Shown piece after piece: positions 24,318 to 32,769 of a DNA stretch of 64,000 nucleotides (its first letter is position 1; each line of letters opens with the position of its first letter). Origin of the DNA: Pseudomonas sp. FP198 (GTDB taxonomy: Bacteria > Pseudomonadota > Gammaproteobacteria > Pseudomonadales > Pseudomonadaceae); NCBI RefSeq assembly GCF_030687895.1, contig NZ_CP117452.1:1071501-1135500 (forward strand). Direction: 5' to 3'. The notes below the pieces were generated by a model that was not told where the DNA came from, did not search any database, and saw only the letters and a program-made list of their open reading frames with translations. The translations under genes were made by a program, and so were the position numbers.

Positions 24318-24344
24318 TGAAATTGACCTGGAATGGAGTTCCTC

Positions 24345-24983
24345 ATGAACGCGGCTTCCCCCATCACGCTGTATACGGCTGATACACCCAATGGGCAGAA
24401 AATCAGTATTTTCCTGAAAGAGGCGGGCATCGATTACCAATTGGTGAAGCTCAACCTGGCTGAAGGACGGCAGCATTCAGCGGAGTTCCTCGCCATAAAC
24501 CCCAACGGGAAAATACCCGCCATCGTCGATCACCAAGCTGGGGTTTCGGTTTTCGAATCCGCCGCCATCCTGGGTTATCTGTCGCAGAAGTACGCTTGCC
24601 TGCTGCCTGATACAGCTGCCGACCAGCTTGCAGTCCAGCAGTGGCTGTTCTTCCAGGTAGGGGCCATCGGCCCTATGCTCGGCCAGCTCTGGTGGTTCTT
24701 GCACGGCAGCACCACGCATAACGAGGAAGCGATCGCGCGTTATCGCAAAGAAGCCTTGCGTCTGTATGGCGTGGTGGACAAGCAATTGGCCGAGCGCAGC
24801 TACCTGGCGTGCAACCAGTATTCCATTGCCGATATCGCGGCGTTCCCCTGGCTGCGAACTTCTGAAGAACTGGAACTGGATATCACGCCGTTCCCTCACG
24901 TGCTGCGCTGGCTCAAAATGATCGAGTCCCGCCCTGCCGTGCAAGCCGGGCTGGCAGAGTCTCGAGAAACACCTGCAAGTTGA
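24345..24983 (+). CDS. Glutathione S-transferase family protein
   Basis: 212 aa if started at the ATG that follows GGAG by six bases (MNAASPITLYTADTPNGQ). The thioredoxin-like domain has TPNGQKISIFLKEAG, the cis-Pro motif GKIPAIVDH and the ES pair FESAAILGYL that binds the glutathione gamma-glutamyl group. The C-terminal helical domain ends VLRWLKMIESRPAVQ. The TPNGxK motif points to the YfcG/YghU (Nu) class, which has disulphide-reductase activity. It is probably controlled by the adjacent palindrome. Confidence 0.9.
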   Translation: MNAASPITLYTADTPNGQKISIFLKEAGIDYQLVKLNLAEGRQHSAEFLAINPNGKIPAIVDHQAGVSVFESAAILGYLSQKYACLLPDTAADQLAVQQWLFFQVGAIGPMLGQLWWFLHGSTTHNEEAIARYRKEALRLYGVVDKQLAERSYLACNQYSIADIAAFPWLRTSEELELDITPFPHVLRWLKMIESRPAVQAGLAESRETPAS

Positions 24984-25195: not shown

Positions 25196-25924
25196 ATGAG
25201 CAGTCAAGCTGTAAAAGGCCGGCGAGTCATAAATACCGGGTCTGAATTGGATGAAAGACTCAAGAGTACATTTGAGAAATGCCTGCGTCCGTTGGACGGC
25301 TGCCATTATGCTTACTTTGTCATGTACAAGGGGCGAGAGGTAAAACCGAGGATTTTCTCCAACTACCCCAAACGCTGGCTCGATGTGTACAAGGCCGAGA
25401 ATTATCATCTTGTCGACCCGGTCATCAAGCACGGTTTGAAGTGCATAGCACCTTTCTTCTGGCATGAAGCGCTTGAGTCCAAGGCGACTGATCAAGGCCA
25501 GGCGGTATTTGCATCCTCGGAAAAATATCAGATATCCGACGGCTTCACGTTCAACTTGCATGATGCCAATGGCCTGTTCGCTGCACTGAGCATCAGCAAC
25601 ACCGAGCGGCGTAAGGATTTTGAGCAAACCATGATGCGCAGGGCGGCCGAGATCCAGATGACGCTCATTCAGTTTCAACACAGGTTGACTGATTGTTTTT
25701 CCTTGAGCGAGCTGTTTCCCGAGTTGACTGAGGCCGGTCTGTCGGACAGGGAACTTGGCGTATTGAAATGGGTGGTCATGGGCAAGGCCTACAGCGAAAT
25801 CGCCGCCATTCATGCCATTTCCGTGCGCACCGTGAAATTCCATATGGCCAACATTGTCGACAAGCTTAGCGTTTGCAACGCCAAGCAAGCCGTCTACAAA
25901 GCGGTCAGCCTGGGGTTGGTCTGA
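25196..25924 (+). CDS. LuxR-family acyl-homoserine-lactone receptor
   Basis: 242 aa, the usual size. The autoinducer-binding domain keeps the family residues W61, Y65, D74, P75, W89 and G126 (NYPKRWLDVYKAENYHLVDP). The GerE helix-turn-helix occupies residues 183-242 (LSDRELGVLKWVVMGKAYSE ... VRTVKFHMANIVDKL). It should bind an N-acyl-homoserine lactone made by the neighbouring synthase and activate through lux-box palindromes. It is convergent with the synthase, and their 3' ends overlap by 31 bases. Confidence 0.93.
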   Translation: MSSQAVKGRRVINTGSELDERLKSTFEKCLRPLDGCHYAYFVMYKGREVKPRIFSNYPKRWLDVYKAENYHLVDPVIKHGLKCIAPFFWHEALESKATDQGQAVFASSEKYQISDGFTFNLHDANGLFAALSISNTERRKDFEQTMMRRAAEIQMTLIQFQHRLTDCFSLSELFPELTEAGLSDRELGVLKWVVMGKAYSEIAAIHAISVRTVKFHMANIVDKLSVCNAKQAVYKAVSLGLV

Positions 25925-26562
25925 ATCTGGCAGGTCAACGGCGGTTTTTCGGCAGCGGATACGCCACGACGCTGCCTTGCCTCTATCGTTTGCCTGAGGC
26001 TCCAGTCGTTCTCGGGGCGCACCGGCATTCTGAGCAGCAGAACCTTTTCGCCGGGGGAAGCTTCGCCGGTATCCAACACCTCGTAGTGCCAACCCGCTCT
26101 TTGGACGATGCGCGACATGGCGTGGCTGACCACCGTTATGATCGAATCCAGGTTCTGCCGAGCAGCATGGTCGTGCATGGCCAGAAGCAGCATCTCGGTC
26201 AGCGGCACCTGACTCAGTCCCATGGCTCGGGAGCGGGTCTTATCAACAAAAAAACGACTGGACTCGGCGATCGCCTGGTCTTTAGGAAGTTCGCAGTTGA
26301 AGAAGTTTCGGAATGGACCTTCGACCATATAAGGATTCAACGTATTGATCAGGCGCAAACTACTCAGGGGGCGGCCCGCATAAAAACCTACCAGGTAAGT
26401 TGCGCAGACAGTGTCATACTCATCAATCTCCCTGCCCAGGTGAGTGGTGACGCGCCAGTCAAGTCGATCGGAAAAAACTTCCTTCCTCAAGCCATACAGG
26501 TCAGCCAGTAAGTCTTCCGAGGCGTCTGAGTAGTTGATGGCGTGAAAGCTGACCTTGTCCAT
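25894..26562 (-). CDS. Acyl-homoserine-lactone synthase (LuxI family)
   Basis: 222 aa. The conserved LuxI residues are present: R26, F30 and W36 (LRKEVFSDRLDW), E45, D48 and D50 (REIDEYD), R70, F84, E100 and R103 (ESSRFFVD). The enzyme makes the signal from S-adenosylmethionine and an acyl-ACP; the acyl chain cannot be predicted here. The C-terminus is slightly longer than usual and reaches into the 3' end of the convergent luxR-type gene. Transcription starts from the region holding two lux-box-like palindromes. Confidence 0.94.
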   Translation of the reverse strand: MDKVSFHAINYSDASEDLLADLYGLRKEVFSDRLDWRVTTHLGREIDEYDTVCATYLVGFYAGRPLSSLRLINTLNPYMVEGPFRNFFNCELPKDQAIAESSRFFVDKTRSRAMGLSQVPLTEMLLLAMHDHAARQNLDSIITVVSHAMSRIVQRAGWHYEVLDTGEASPGEKVLLLRMPVRPENDWSLRQTIEARQRRGVSAAEKPPLTCQIQTNPRLTAL

Positions 26563-26642: not shown

Positions 26643-26658
26643 CTGTACCTAGATACAG
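26643..26658. promoter_or_regulatory. lux-box-like palindrome 1
   Basis: CTGTACCTAGATACAG is a 16-base near-palindrome with CTGTA/TACAG arms, 81 bases upstream of the AHL synthase start. It resembles the CTG...CAG architecture of LuxR/LasR sites. It is paired with a second copy 31 bases away. Confidence 0.6.
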
Positions 26659-26673
26659 GCGCAAAAATTAAAG

Positions 26674-26689
26674 CTGCACCCAAGTACAG
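26674..26689. promoter_or_regulatory. lux-box-like palindrome 2
   Basis: CTGCACCCAAGTACAG has the same CTG-N-AC...GTACAG layout as palindrome 1 and is offset by 31 bases, about three helical turns. It lies 105 bases before the first biosynthetic gene. The pair could activate both the synthase (minus strand) and the operon (plus strand). Confidence 0.6.
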
Positions 26690-26793: not shown

Positions 26794-27969
26794 ATGAGTG
26801 TCATGACCCGTCTGGATGATAAAGAAGATATCACCCAACATGAAATTTCTGCCTTGAAGACCCGCTTCAATCTGGCTGACGCCCACACCCATCAGGACCA
26901 AAGTGTCACCCAACAAGAGATCGTCAATCGGCTTCCCGAACTCTGGTATCGCGCTCAAGGCCAAAGCCAGTACCAGAGCGAGCAGGAATTCATCCAGGCG
27001 TTCTTTACCTTTCATGGCCAGGAGCACGCGCTCAAGCGCCATGATGAAATCTATCTGGTTTACGCAGCCTCGATCGCGATGCACATCACCGCGACCTACC
27101 TGCGCAAACGCAACATGAGTGTCGGCTTGATCGAACCATGCTTCGACAACCTGCATGACCTGCTCAAACACATGGAAGTGCCGTTGACGCCGCTGGACGA
27201 AGCCCTTTTGCAATCGTCAACCGATGTCTATGCGAAGCTTCAATCGGCGGCCGCAAATGTCGATGCGATTTTCCTGGTCGACCCCAACAACCCGACCGGT
27301 ACCAGCATGTTCGCCGAGGGCGCCGACACCTTTGTCGAAGTGGCGCGCTATTGCAAGGACCACGGCAAGCTGCTCATCCTGGACTTCTGCTTCGCGGCGT
27401 TTATCAAGGCGGCCGGGGGCAGTCGCGTTGATGCCTATGCCATCCTCGATGACATCGGTACCCAGTACATCATCATGGAAGACACCGGGAAAACCTGGCC
27501 GCTACAGGACACCAAATGCGCCACGATCATGTCCAGCCAGGCCATCAACGCTGACATCTACAGCATCGTGACCAGCGTATTGTTGAACGTGTCGCCCTTC
27601 ATCCTGAATGTCGTGACTCAATACATTCGCGATAGCAGTGATGATGATTTCGAATCGGTGCGCTCGGTACTTGACGTTAACCGCGCTGCCGCCCGACGCC
27701 ATCTGCAGGGCAGCTTCCTGAATTACCTGACGCCCAAGATCGAAACCAGTGTCGCCTGGTTCGAGATCCTGCGTGACGGTGTTACTGCCGATGATCTGCA
27801 GGCCTACCTGATGGCGTACGAAGTCTACGTCCTGCCGGGCAAGTACTTTTATTGGAGCCAGCCGCAGGCGGGGCAGAAATATATCCGCCTGGCACTGGCA
27901 CGCAAACCCGAGGAGTTCGAACAGGCGGTCGAAACCATCGCACGCGCTTTGGAGAACTATCATGGCTGA
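26794..27969 (+). CDS. PLP-dependent aminotransferase class I/II-like enzyme
   Basis: 391 aa from the ATG preceded by AGGAA. Fold-type I landmarks are the DPNNPTG motif (163-169), Asp197 in LILDFCF, the likely Schiff-base Lys233 in EDTGKTWPLQD and a C-terminal Arg in YIRLALARK. The DTGKTWP context differs from classical aminotransferases (SxSK) and resembles divergent biosynthetic PLP enzymes that do not always transaminate. It is first in a five-gene operon with overlapping junctions, so it probably commits an amino acid to the product. Confidence 0.85.
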   Translation: MSVMTRLDDKEDITQHEISALKTRFNLADAHTHQDQSVTQQEIVNRLPELWYRAQGQSQYQSEQEFIQAFFTFHGQEHALKRHDEIYLVYAASIAMHITATYLRKRNMSVGLIEPCFDNLHDLLKHMEVPLTPLDEALLQSSTDVYAKLQSAAANVDAIFLVDPNNPTGTSMFAEGADTFVEVARYCKDHGKLLILDFCFAAFIKAAGGSRVDAYAILDDIGTQYIIMEDTGKTWPLQDTKCATIMSSQAINADIYSIVTSVLLNVSPFILNVVTQYIRDSSDDDFESVRSVLDVNRAAARRHLQGSFLNYLTPKIETSVAWFEILRDGVTADDLQAYLMAYEVYVLPGKYFYWSQPQAGQKYIRLALARKPEEFEQAVETIARALENYHG

Positions 27970-28480
27970 AGCTTCCATGGCGGTTATCGACGCTACTGTT
28001 TTCATGGGCATGCACCATAGCGACCCTGAGATTCGGGCCAGGTCGCTGGGTTTTTTCGGCGCGTTTTATTCGCGTCAGGTGCAGATGAGTTTCGGTCAGA
28101 TTGGTATCTGTGATGCCATTATCTGGAAAAAAAGCCGGCACTTGCAGGACGTCTATTACCCCTTCATGGATGTCCTCCATACAGACATGGATATCCAGCG
28201 TCAGGGCTATTGCAACAAGGTTCTGAAACGCGCCTGCCTGGAGCCTGACTGGGCGCACCTGAGCGTGGAAAAAAAGTTATTGGTGGCTCATGTCGTTGAG
28301 CACCAACAACCTTTTTTCACCCATGACGAGTCGCTGCGCGAGGTGGGTTTACTCAAGCCATTCCTGAAGACGTTTCCGCCCTCGGTTTCGCAATCCGCAT
28401 TTCCTGAAAAACTTCAGCGCTTGTACGAGCAGTCCATGGAAATGACCATCGGCCAGGAGGACTTCCAGCATGTCGGCTAA
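27962..28480 (+). CDS. Small PIN-like protein of unknown function in the quorum-sensing operon
   Basis: 172 aa, overlapping the preceding gene by 8 bases. The N-terminus MAVIDATVFMGMHHSD (Asp10) and the late motif PFFTHDESLREVG (Asp122) resemble the first and third acidic positions of PIN-like folds. I cannot confirm a nuclease, and the pattern may instead represent a PIN-derived domain of unknown function such as DUF6190 (low-confidence recall). It is Cys/His-containing and has no membrane segment. Its retention inside a biosynthetic operon is unexplained. Confidence 0.7.
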   Translation: MAEASMAVIDATVFMGMHHSDPEIRARSLGFFGAFYSRQVQMSFGQIGICDAIIWKKSRHLQDVYYPFMDVLHTDMDIQRQGYCNKVLKRACLEPDWAHLSVEKKLLVAHVVEHQQPFFTHDESLREVGLLKPFLKTFPPSVSQSAFPEKLQRLYEQSMEMTIGQEDFQHVG

Positions 28481-29273
28481 GCACATCTATGTACCGTTGA
28501 TTACGCCCCTTGATGAGCATTCGCATGTCTGCGAAGCCAGCGTGCGCAAGTTGCTGCATAGTTCGCGGCCGTTTGTCGATGGCTACATCCCGTGCCTGAC
28601 ATCCGGTGAAGGTTGGCGGCTTGGGAAGCGCGACTGGCAGCGCATGCTGGAGCTGACGCTGGCGCACGCGCAAGATAAAACCGTCATCGCCGGCATTGAA
28701 CGGGCGACCACCGCCGAAGTCATCGAATATGCGCGGTTGGCGCAAACCCATGGGGCCCAGGCGGTCATGTTTACTTCGCCTTTCGCTTCAGGCACCAGCC
28801 AGCAAGACATGATCGATCACTACCGGGCGGTCCATGACGCCACGTCGCTGGATATCTTCATCTACAACGAGTCGGCCCTCTCAGGTAATGAAAAAAGCTT
28901 CGACACCTTGCTTGCCATCGCCCAGTTACCGAGAGTCATCGGCATCAAGGATTCACCTTCCCAGCCGCGCGTCCAGAGTGAAATCGAGCGCCTGCGCAAC
29001 GAGGGGCTGGATTACTTCATCGGTTGGGAAATGCTGTTGGCGAGAGAGCTGGAGTCCGACGGCAATGTCGTGTCGTTGGCCAATCTTGAGCCAGCGCTTT
29101 GCCGGCTGGCGATCAGTGCCCGACAAACCATGGTCGGTGGCCTGGTGGCGACGCTCAATGAGCAATTCGAACTGGCCGCGGACGATTGGTACGCTCATGT
29201 CAAAAAGGAACTCAAGGCACGCGGCGTCATCAGCACCGACCGAGTCTTCGCAGAGCAGGAGGTCATGGCATGA
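28470..29273 (+). CDS. Dihydrodipicolinate synthase/N-acetylneuraminate lyase-family protein
   Basis: 267 aa, starting inside the previous gene with AGGAGG nine bases upstream. The TIM-barrel class I aldolase motifs are present: TSGEG (44-48), catalytic Tyr132 in IFIYNESAL and Schiff-base Lys160 in VIGIKDSP. The family condenses or cleaves pyruvate-type ketoacids with aldehydes. It is shorter than housekeeping DapA (~292 aa) and sits in a secondary-metabolite context, so a dedicated C-C bond step is more likely than lysine synthesis. Confidence 0.85.
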   Translation: MSAKHIYVPLITPLDEHSHVCEASVRKLLHSSRPFVDGYIPCLTSGEGWRLGKRDWQRMLELTLAHAQDKTVIAGIERATTAEVIEYARLAQTHGAQAVMFTSPFASGTSQQDMIDHYRAVHDATSLDIFIYNESALSGNEKSFDTLLAIAQLPRVIGIKDSPSQPRVQSEIERLRNEGLDYFIGWEMLLARELESDGNVVSLANLEPALCRLAISARQTMVGGLVATLNEQFELAADDWYAHVKKELKARGVISTDRVFAEQEVMA

Positions 29274-30127
29274 GCGACCTGCAGAAACAACTGTTCCTGG
29301 CAAATCGCGCCTGCATCAAGCAGCTCAAGCCATTGGAAAGCCATATCCTGGCCTTCGAGCGTGACTGGATCGAGTCGACCATCGACAAGACGCGGACCGC
29401 CAATCCGCCGACTGATCTCGCCACGTTACGCAAGCAACTGGCTGAACTGGTGGAGATCGACCGCAGCGAGGTGCCGCCCAGCGCGGTGTATGTCAGCGAG
29501 CATATGAACCTTGAGGAATTCAAGATCCTGGTGCAGGAATTCGCCCTGGATGGCTTGACCGAGGCGCAGGTCTTTTACCACCTCATGCCCCGTCTCAGCC
29601 TGGCCGCGCAAATGCCGATGTTACGCATGATGATCGACGAGTTCGGGTCCGGTAACCTCAAGCGGTCCCACACCACGTTGTATATCGATCTGCTCAATGA
29701 GTTGCAGATGCCCACTGACCTGGCCTTCTATATCGACGTCAACGCGCCGGCCGGTTTCTCGTTTCCCAACATGTTCTGCTGGTTGACGATGAGGGCGGAT
29801 GATCCGTCGTACTTCGCCGGCGTCATCACCTACTTCGAAACCGTCGTGCCATTCTTTTTTGAATGCTACACGTCGATCTGCTCGCGGTTGCAGATCAAAG
29901 CCCACACCTACTATTCCGAGCATGTCCATATTGATGTTTTCCACGCCATTGAAGGCCAGCGGTTGCTCAAAGCGATGGACGTGGCGGGCGACCTCGATCC
30001 TGTCAAGGCGTGGGAGGGCATCTGCATGGGACGTGACATCACTAACGCCGCGTTTGATGCGGCCGTCGATAAGGCCAGGCGCCAAAAACACTTCGACAAG
30101 GAGCGCATGATTGAGCGAGCCATCTGA
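29270..30127 (+). CDS. Heme-oxygenase-like diiron oxidase (iron-containing redox enzyme family)
   Basis: 285 aa, ATGA overlap with the previous gene. The family signature DEFGSGNLKRSHTTLY (E124, H134) and the C-terminal ligand cluster YYSEHVHIDVFHA (H218, D222, H225) are clear, with an earlier Glu in EHMNLEEFKILVQEF. HDO enzymes such as UndA and BesC-type proteins use a diiron centre and O2 for C-C cleavage, N-oxygenation or desaturation. Which of these happens here is unknown. The Rieske protein encoded next is a plausible electron donor. Confidence 0.85.
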   Translation: MSDLQKQLFLANRACIKQLKPLESHILAFERDWIESTIDKTRTANPPTDLATLRKQLAELVEIDRSEVPPSAVYVSEHMNLEEFKILVQEFALDGLTEAQVFYHLMPRLSLAAQMPMLRMMIDEFGSGNLKRSHTTLYIDLLNELQMPTDLAFYIDVNAPAGFSFPNMFCWLTMRADDPSYFAGVITYFETVVPFFFECYTSICSRLQIKAHTYYSEHVHIDVFHAIEGQRLLKAMDVAGDLDPVKAWEGICMGRDITNAAFDAAVDKARRQKHFDKERMIERAI

Positions 30128-30347
30128 ATTCTATCGTCCGGGCACGTTCGCCGTCGTAATCGACGATCAGCACTTTGAAGTGCCGCATACTTGCCCACAC
30201 CGCGCCGGATGGCTGGAGCACGGGGTGATCAATCAGCAGCGTAAAAGCATCACCTGCCCCTTGCACTTTTCGGTGTTCAGCCTGGAAACGGGCGAGCAAC
30301 TCAGTGGACCGCCTTGTGGGCGCCTTGAGGTGAAGCGCTTGAGTTAG
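30111..30347 (+). CDS. Minimal Rieske [2Fe-2S] ferredoxin-like protein
   Basis: 78 aa. The cluster ligands are C28 and H30 (CPHRAGWLEHG) and C49 and H52 (CPLHFSVFSLETGE), the standard Rieske C-x-H / C-x2-H pattern. The start is TTG at 30111, with AAGGAG seven bases upstream and a 17-base overlap with the oxidase gene. No ATG fits the frame. It likely shuttles electrons to the upstream diiron oxidase. It closes the operon and is followed by a hairpin. Confidence 0.85.
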   Translation: MSEPSEFYRPGTFAVVIDDQHFEVPHTCPHRAGWLEHGVINQQRKSITCPLHFSVFSLETGEQLSGPPCGRLEVKRLS

Positions 30348-31183: not shown

Positions 31184-31423
31184 CTAGGCTAGGACACCAA
31201 TAAACAAATCCAGATTTGTTGGGAGAGGTACGCCGATAATTTTAGAAATTTCTGTGACCTGTTCATTCGTCAGCAGCCATTCCCCTTCAGCCATTGCGTT
31301 AAGACTTCCATGGCCTAAAAGCTGCACGATTTGACCATTGAAGGATTCATCCAAATCGAGATCGAATTGAAGCGAATCATCTTCTTCCCCGTCCGGTAAG
31401 AATCCACTGATAGATAGGTACAT
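31184..31423 (-). CDS. Candidate immunity protein for the adjacent bacteriocin
   Basis: 79 aa, acidic (LPDGEEDDSLQFDLDLDESF), eight bases downstream of the ribonuclease bacteriocin gene in the same direction, with AGGAG before its ATG. Size, charge and position fit an immunity protein that would neutralise the strongly basic toxin domain. The sequence does not obviously match the classical colicin E3 immunity protein, so the assignment rests on context. Confidence 0.6.
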   Translation of the reverse strand: MYLSISGFLPDGEEDDSLQFDLDLDESFNGQIVQLLGHGSLNAMAEGEWLLTNEQVTEISKIIGVPLPTNLDLFIGVLA

Positions 31424-31431
31424 AAGAACTC

Positions 31432-32769
31432 CTATTTCTCTACTTTGCGGCCGGGTTTGGCCGGTTTGGTTTGCGCGCCGGTATCGGCGTTGTACTCCCC
31501 CAAATGCTCGCCCTGCTTGTTGTACAGTTCCACTCTACCGTTTTCAGAATCCCATTCGTAGATACGCCCCTTCTTATCTTTCCAACGCCTGCGAGAGCTG
31601 CCGCCACCTTGCACCCGTGATTTGAACCGGACATGACGTGCATCAGGAAACGCAGCCAGCAATTTTGGAGCAGGATGATAACTATGATCCCCACCAAAGG
31701 GCCGGGTAAACACTACATAAAGCGACTTCAGCCCCGTATCCGCCGGAAATACCAGAATCCAGTCTTCGGCCGTGATGTCTTCACCGGGCAACCCACCAAT
31801 CTGGCTGTCGACATCCTCCGCTATCGGATGGACGAAGATCGTGTCCAGCTGTTTGCCAATATCCTCCGGATAGGTCAGCGGCGGAAGCGAGCCATGCGGG
31901 GTCTCCTGGGGTGTCCAGATAAGGGTGACGTCGTTGAGCTTGGCTTCCATGGCGGTCTGGCCGGCGTTCCAGGTCACCTGTACGGTGCGCACCGAGTCGT
32001 CGCCGGACGGGCCGCTGTGGATGCCATATACCTGGAGCACGCCTTCGGCATCGCGGCGTAATTGGAAGCGCACGCGGGTGGTGGCGTGGCTCAGGCGGCG
32101 TAGCTGGTCATCGGTGTACAGCGTGCCGTCGTTCATCTTCGCCGGGAGCATGCCCAGGACGAAGACGCTGGCTGGGCCGCCGGCACCGCGTAGCGCCCAG
32201 GTCAGGCGCTGTTGCATGATCCCGCCGCCAGCGATGCGGCCCAGCGCCAGGTCAGCGCCGAGGGCCGAGGCAATGGCGGTACTCGCCGAGGGCATGAGCA
32301 TGGCGCCCGCCACCATGATCCGGCCGAAATTCGAGGCCGGTTCGCGGGTGGTGCCGGCGCCTGTGTTGCACCAGTTTTCCGCGCTGCAGGATTTGGCAAA
32401 CACCAGGTCTTCGCGTGGCTTGGGCTGCGGCCATCGTTCCGGGGGCCTGCGAACCGGTTCAGGCTCCGGTTTGTGGCGCGGCATCGAACCAGCGCCCGAG
32501 CCGACGAACGCCATGCTCACCAATAACAAGTCGCCGTTCCTGACGGCCTTGACGATATCGATGCCTCCGTGGACTCTCGAGTGTATTCGATACTGATCCG
32601 GCCCATAGACGGTGAGGCCGTTCATCAGCGCGCTCTCGACCGTAAGCGCGGCAACATCGGCAGCCACGGTCGACTCAAAGCTTTTTTCCCCCCACCTTAT
32701 CAAGCGCATTGCGTTCCTTTGCGTTTCAAGTAGGCGGGCCATTCTGGTGAGGCGTTCCCTGACCAGCAA
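31432..32769 (-). CDS. S-type pyocin-like bacteriocin with colicin E3-type ribonuclease domain
   Basis: 445 aa if started at TTG 32769; ATGs at 32742 and 32709 are alternatives. The central ~200 residues resemble the pyocin S translocation domain (LTWALRGAGGPASVFVLGML). The last ~85 match the colicin E3/cloacin 16S-rRNA nuclease: HSYHPAPK, GGGSSRRRWKDKKGRIYEWD, GEHLGEYNADTG, and basic KPGRKVEK. In E3 the catalytic set is D510, H513, E517, R545; here it reads D, N, E, R, so the His is Asn. No receptor-binding N-terminus is present. The open frame continues 20 codons upstream to a stop next to a repeat, so the gene may be 5'-truncated. Confidence 0.8.
   Translation of the reverse strand: MLVRERLTRMARLLETQRNAMRLIRWGEKSFESTVAADVAALTVESALMNGLTVYGPDQYRIHSRVHGGIDIVKAVRNGDLLLVSMAFVGSGAGSMPRHKPEPEPVRRPPERWPQPKPREDLVFAKSCSAENWCNTGAGTTREPASNFGRIMVAGAMLMPSASTAIASALGADLALGRIAGGGIMQQRLTWALRGAGGPASVFVLGMLPAKMNDGTLYTDDQLRRLSHATTRVRFQLRRDAEGVLQVYGIHSGPSGDDSVRTVQVTWNAGQTAMEAKLNDVTLIWTPQETPHGSLPPLTYPEDIGKQLDTIFVHPIAEDVDSQIGGLPGEDITAEDWILVFPADTGLKSLYVVFTRPFGGDHSYHPAPKLLAAFPDARHVRFKSRVQGGGSSRRRWKDKKGRIYEWDSENGRVELYNKQGEHLGEYNADTGAQTKPAKPGRKVEK

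Follow-up and report, generated by a model that had tools for sequence, protein, structure and literature searches.

A rohPQRST azomycin operon beside luxR and luxI in Pseudomonas sp. FP198, with a proposed LuxR-AHL switch

The five genes and the azomycin pathway

The stretch analyzed here (the window) comprises 64,000 nucleotides of Pseudomonas sp. FP198 (contig NZ_CP117452.1, positions 1,071,501 to 1,135,500). At positions 26794-30347 it carries five overlapping genes, which we identify from their sequences as rohPQRST, the already known cluster for production of azomycin (2-nitroimidazole) from L-arginine. A luxR and a luxI gene for acyl-homoserine lactone (AHL) signaling lie directly upstream. 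Our reading, at a probability of about 0.96, is an azomycin operon that is most likely switched on together with luxI by LuxR and an AHL. The five open reading frames (ORFs) are as follows.

26794-27969, + strand: rohP, O2- and pyridoxal phosphate (PLP)-dependent L-arginine oxidase/hydroxylase, 391 amino acids (PDB 6c3a, 416 bits, residues 12-387)
27962-28480, + strand: rohQ, cyclodehydratase with a PIN fold, 172 amino acids, Pfam DUF6190 (PDB 9c5w/9oq8)
28470-29273, + strand: rohR, DapA-like class I retro-aldolase, 267 amino acids (Pfam DHDPS 1.4e-24, residues 4-254)
29270-30127, + strand: rohS, haem-oxygenase-like diiron N-oxygenase for 2-aminoimidazole to 2-nitroimidazole, 285 amino acids (PDB 9pfx)
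30111-30347, + strand: rohT, minimal Rieske [2Fe-2S] protein, 78 amino acids, TTG start, presumed electron donor of RohS (Pfam Rieske 1.2e-07)

All five genes are co-directional in the order P-Q-R-S-T of the rohPQRST operon, with junctions of -8, -11, -4 and -17 bases, and these coordinates and overlaps exactly reproduce those of an earlier note made from the same DNA. The Pfam matches in gene order, Aminotran_1_2, DUF6190, DHDPS, Haem_oxygenas_2 and Rieske, likewise agree with its calls of a PLP enzyme, a DapA-like aldolase, a haem-oxygenase-fold protein and a minimal Rieske protein. The identification as rohPQRST follows from RohP, RohQ and RohS, which match named or solved relatives over about their full length, and from family membership plus conserved residues for RohR and RohT. 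RohP falls into the RohP/MppP type of PLP-dependent arginine oxidases; the structure 6c3a, with which it shares the motif EDTGKTWP, is titled 'Uncharacterized protein' and is taken by us to be RohP. RohQ matches the structures 9c5w/9oq8, named 'Cyclodehydratase RohQ'/'RohQ', at 360 and 359 bits over residues 1-172, with 87-90% identity across the RohQ crystal chains. Its predicted model (mean predicted local distance difference test score 93.3) superposes on 9c5w with a template modeling (TM) score of 0.95 at 90% identity. In a Foldseek search with this model, the crystal structures of RohQ itself were followed by matches including VapC/PIN-domain proteins (E 4e-4 to ~1e-2, TM ~0.5). Thus, the label 'PIN-like' in the earlier note was right at the level of the fold, while the published function is that of a cyclodehydratase and no nuclease. 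RohS matches 9pfx, 'PbrRohS', at 619 bits over residues 1-285. RohR belongs to the DHDPS family and keeps Lys160, which is invariant in 21/21 relatives compared and is, by family, presumably the Schiff-base lysine. The CPH and CPLH motifs of RohT are also invariant in 21/21 relatives compared.

We searched 398 Pseudomonas genomes and found RohS in 21 of them and RohQ in the same 21; the counts of gene context below include all 21 roh genomes. The genes P, Q, R, S and T stand in this order at every one of the 21 loci. rohP and rohQ overlap by 8 bases in 18 loci and by 4 in one, and the rohP frame is interrupted in the other two (G117 and G080), which both have no adjacent luxI; the interruption may be assembly error or gene decay. 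At the locus of G212, rohR and rohS form a single ORF with no stop between them, either a possible fused protein or an assembly fault. In a phylum-wide draw of 398 genomes, RohQ/DUF6190 was present in one, the window's own. Among the named matches found with the RohQ protein are Burkholderia, Salinisphaera, Actinoalloteichus and Saccharothrix. Because the Pseudomonas genomes with DUF6190 (PF19689) are the same 21/398 as those with RohS, the family in Pseudomonas, which Pfam still labels DUF6190, could be renamed RohQ cyclodehydratase, after a cyclodehydratase with a PIN-type fold.

The enzyme identities in the window are sequence matches, and the pathway comes from published work in other strains, cited here from partial texts of PMC10724926 and PMC12713392. 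In PMC10724926, RohP is an arginine oxidase, RohR a retro-aldolase and RohQ a cyclodehydratase that together lead to 2-aminoimidazole, and RohS is the N-oxygenase that gives azomycin. By analogy, the window RohP would oxidize L-arginine with O2 and PLP, RohR would cleave the product by a retro-aldol reaction, RohQ would close the ring by cyclodehydration to 2-aminoimidazole, and the diiron enzyme RohS would turn the amine into the nitro group. RohT would probably pass electrons to RohS. Since the RohS reaction was powered by phenazine methosulfate and NADH in that work, we only infer RohT as the natural donor; its nature as a Rieske protein was read from the window sequence, and the available portion of PMC12713392 is silent on it. 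According to PMC12713392, rohPQRST adjoins luxRI in Pseudomonas, deletion of the operon in Pseudomonas sp. DF41 abolishes azomycin, and azomycin is made by both DF41 and CMR5c, two roh-bearing strains of the P. fluorescens complex. It is very probable that the window strain has the azomycin genes.

These results leave almost no probability for a new pathway, the reading of the earlier note, which had seen no recognized product and a gene combination absent from any described pathway. The combination is indeed unusual, and databases still list RohQ under a DUF label. However, the whole set is the described cluster rohPQRST (PMC12713392 and PMC10724926), the very finding that the note had named as refuting its reading; the DF41 deletion and the closeness to named RohQ and RohS refute the idea. 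We dropped it on account of the Pseudomonas operon paper (PMC12713392) and of the matches that RohQ, RohS and RohP gave to named or solved proteins. The mechanism outlined in the note survived in its general form (a small amino-acid-derived metabolite, a PLP enzyme, an aldolase step and O2-dependent oxidation), and its density dependence is plausible. Some details differ: the aldolase cleaves in the retro-aldol direction, the diiron protein acts as a nitro-forming N-oxygenase, and the function of the PIN-like protein is cyclodehydration (PMC10724926).

Some observations weigh against our main reading. No solved structure named RohR was found among the best 60 PDB matches of the window RohR, nor did the PDB search give a close solved match named RohT. 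Moreover, azomycin was not detectable in cultures of P. syringae DC3000 and B728a, which carry the operon (PMC12713392, available part). Together with a glutathione S-transferase (GST) gene near most roh clusters that could modify the product, this could mean that the end product is 2-aminoimidazole or a further-modified relative. We regard this as very unlikely, because the window RohS is intact and very near the crystallized PbrRohS, the two P. fluorescens-complex strains above do make azomycin, and the GST gene lies outside the operon and was not found near 5/21 clusters.

The lux genes and lux boxes upstream of rohP

Between the GST gene and rohP, the following features were found.

25196-25924, + strand: luxR-type AHL receptor gene, convergent with luxI (Pfam Autoind_bind 9.4e-30, GerE 1.5e-14)
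25894-26562, - strand: luxI-type AHL synthase gene, divergent from rohP (Pfam Autoind_synth 4.9e-43)
26643-26658, strand not assigned: luxI-proximal lux box CTGTACCTAGATACAG, 1 mismatch to the consensus CTGTACCTAGGTACAG
26674-26689, + strand: rohP-proximal lux box CTGCACCCAAGTACAG, 3 mismatches to the same consensus

The window LuxI is the sole PF00765 match in its genome, and luxI and luxR are adjacent to each other, as in a LuxI/LuxR-controlled operon. The lux boxes in the promoter region are above chance: across 100 shuffled versions of the window, sites with <=3 mismatches averaged 0.09 per version, and no version had two. The AHL synthase and the two lux-box-like sites described in the earlier note are thereby confirmed.

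To place the window among its relatives, the 21 roh loci were located by tblastn with the window proteins. luxR and luxI adjoin roh at 11 of them, luxR without adjacent luxI at 8, and neither gene at 2. A site with 0-4 mismatches to the consensus (<=4 allowed) was found in the 330 bases searched upstream of rohP at 19/21 loci, which are precisely the 19 with luxR; the 2 loci without luxR have no box. At <=2 mismatches, the 21 genomes contain 24 sites, 18 of which lie at roh promoters (16 genomes) and 6 elsewhere, and a reversed-pattern control gave 5 sites at the same threshold. The off-target sites are thus about as frequent as background, which suggests a local switch for luxI and roh alone. 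In addition, the trees of LuxR and of the Roh proteins agree in their main groups, with moderate support.

Most likely, LuxR with the AHL made by LuxI binds between luxI and rohP, at the two lux boxes. The bound LuxR would turn on both luxI and roh, leading to azomycin at high cell density. This AHL control of roh is proposed from gene arrangement and promoter sites, and several points count against it. The two most diverged roh loci (in G288 and G171) have neither luxR nor a lux box. At <=2 mismatches, the search missed the roh promoters in G237, G269 and G376, and the 18 promoter hits are partly a matter of construction because the consensus of the box was derived from roh promoters. A literature search, within the text portions available, found no experiment on AHL control of roh, and its passages on P. 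syringae were without roh.

The two loci with neither luxR nor a box could be taken to mean that the luxRI neighborhood is incidental and that roh is under some other control. The report that DF41 makes azomycin in planta only when an oomycete pathogen is present (PMC12713392, available part) would fit such an explanation, as would the lack of any roh regulation experiment in our search. We consider it unlikely, since luxR adjoins roh at 19/21 loci and the box stands upstream of rohP at the same 19, off-target boxes are at control frequency, and LuxR and Roh fall into the same main groups. A switch by LuxR and an AHL is retained as the preferred reading. Azomycin is reportedly active on oomycetes and pea plants (PMC12713392, available part), and the DF41 literature, as far as available, describes PdfRI, a second, lipopeptide-linked system. 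Where luxR is missing, in G288 and G171, a gene judged by eye to be of the LysR type lies close to roh, as does a different GST gene.

Loci without luxI and the linked glutathione S-transferase

In the available part of PMC12713392, roh clusters are stated to adjoin luxRI 'in all cases'. The 8 loci with luxR alone and the 2 with neither gene are at odds with this statement and qualify it, though the genome sets differ. Among 12 named roh loci, which overlap with the 21, 7 have luxRI, 4 have luxR without luxI and 1 lies on a contig too short to tell. P. graminis DSM 11363, P. parafulva NBRC 16636, P. entomophila 4A7 and MWU15-20650 have GST, luxR and roh without luxI. For 6 of the 8 genomes with such a solo luxR, no LuxI (PF00765) match was found in the whole assembly; the remaining two, G395 and G080, carry LuxI genes at other places in the genome.

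The solo LuxR retains its autoinducer-binding domain in the one protein tested. Searched against the window genome, this protein gave the roh-linked LuxR as the best match (133.5 bits), followed at a distance by 45.1 bits. The residues W, Y, D, P, W and G, which we take to be the canonical AHL pocket, are present at the aligned positions in 8/8 solo LuxR proteins. We had considered a LuxR solo of the plant-signal type with an altered pocket and rejected it on account of these retained residues. A term search of the LuxR-solo literature gave, in the text portions available, just an unrelated glutathione gene beside a different LuxR. In the concatenated Roh tree, the solo group stands next to two luxRI genomes (support 86), apart from the other luxRI groups. 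This tree lacks RohR of G212 (continuous with RohS), RohT of G171 (over-long frame) and RohP of G117 and G080 (interrupted), and we chose to root it on the two loci without luxR; with this root, losing luxI is a simpler history than gaining it twice. Support is moderate here too.

It is tempting to suppose that a LuxR solo controls the azomycin operon in one clade of Pseudomonas, so that the antibiotic is made in answer to the AHLs of other bacteria, with the GST protecting the producer. This eavesdropping is a tentative idea, to which we give somewhat less than even odds. The lux box is perfect in 4/8 solo genomes and the AHL-binding domain is kept, whereas rohP is interrupted in 2/8 (including the P. 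parafulva type) and LuxI genes exist elsewhere in 2/8. If true, the solo strains would answer to others' AHLs and their relatives to their own.

The GST gene concerned lies upstream of luxR in the window.

24333-24983, + strand: glutathione S-transferase gene, roh-linked, possible self-protection gene (Pfam GST_N/GST_C)

At 14/21 roh loci, a GST with >=54% identity to that of the window stands upstream of luxR. The two luxR-less loci have a nearby GST that belongs to another subfamily (22.7 and 25.6% identity to the window GST), making 16/21 loci with a GST near roh from two distant subfamilies. With three GST queries, none was found near the other 5 clusters, one of which (G212) is on a contig that ends ~190 bases upstream of luxR. 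GST_N was matched 19 times in the 5.86 Mb of the window genome, or ~0.04 times per 12 kb; the roh/GST loci are related to each other and represent few independent events. When up to 7 candidates per genome were scored, the window-type GST (>=54%) occurred in 2/377 genomes without roh (G104 and G110), so that 14/16 carriers have roh. No roh gene was found in 12.6 kb around the GST of these two genomes, where one partial match to a LuxR-type DNA-binding domain was seen, in G104. The GST of G293 has a stop inside the aligned stretch. No lux box with <=2 mismatches was found beside the GST. We had also considered the GST as a strict member of the cluster, which was not upheld given the 5 clusters with no GST nearby and the two carriers without roh. 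According to the available part of PMC9038562, 2-nitroimidazoles that have been reduced bind to proteins as well as to glutathione, and GST activity is lowered in treated hypoxic human cells. Total glutathione was unchanged there, and depletion of GSTP1 and GAPDH had no effect on viability. Self-protection against azomycin by the roh-linked GST is plausible.

On the other side of the operon, ~1.1 kb past rohT, an S-type pyocin-like bacteriocin gene is located at 31432-32769 on the - strand (Pfam Cytotoxic 6.1e-31, C-terminal; Pyocin_S 1.9e-28). A 79-amino-acid ORF next to it (31184-31423, - strand) is in the position of an immunity gene and has no Pfam match at E 0.01.

Comparison with known systems

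The finding at this locus is real and already explained, and what is still of interest is the variant without the signal gene, together with the GST linked to roh. What we add is the lux-box survey, the luxI-less loci and the roh-linked GST. The comparison makes testable both the AHL control of azomycin and the response of LuxR-only strains to the signals of their neighbors.

RohS shares the stretches IDE.G..H and EH.HID..H, presumably with metal-ligand roles, with SznF, and such metal-site-like stretches are also shared with other haem-oxygenase-like diiron N-oxygenases. Overall similarity to SznF is weak (30 bits), and SznF is longer and has a cupin domain. MppP (enduracididine) and GntC (guanitoxin), PLP enzymes whose substrates are arginine or arginine derivatives, are related to the window RohP. 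The top NCBIfam family for this RohP is MppP, but it scores under the cut-offs of both the MppP and the GntC families, and it is far closer to 6c3a (416 bits) than to 5dj1, a structure of the arginine hydroxylase MppP (216 bits). The rohPQRST cluster of Streptomyces eurocidicus encodes the same five enzymes for the same pathway (PMC12713392 and PMC10724926, available parts), with 36-55% identity between its Roh proteins and those of CMR5c (PMC12713392). Also among the closest known systems are the clusters of Pseudomonas sp. DF41 and CMR5c (PMC12713392, available part), with which the window shares the five genes, their order and the luxR and luxI neighbors; the azomycin data come from those strains, whereas the window strain is known from its genes.

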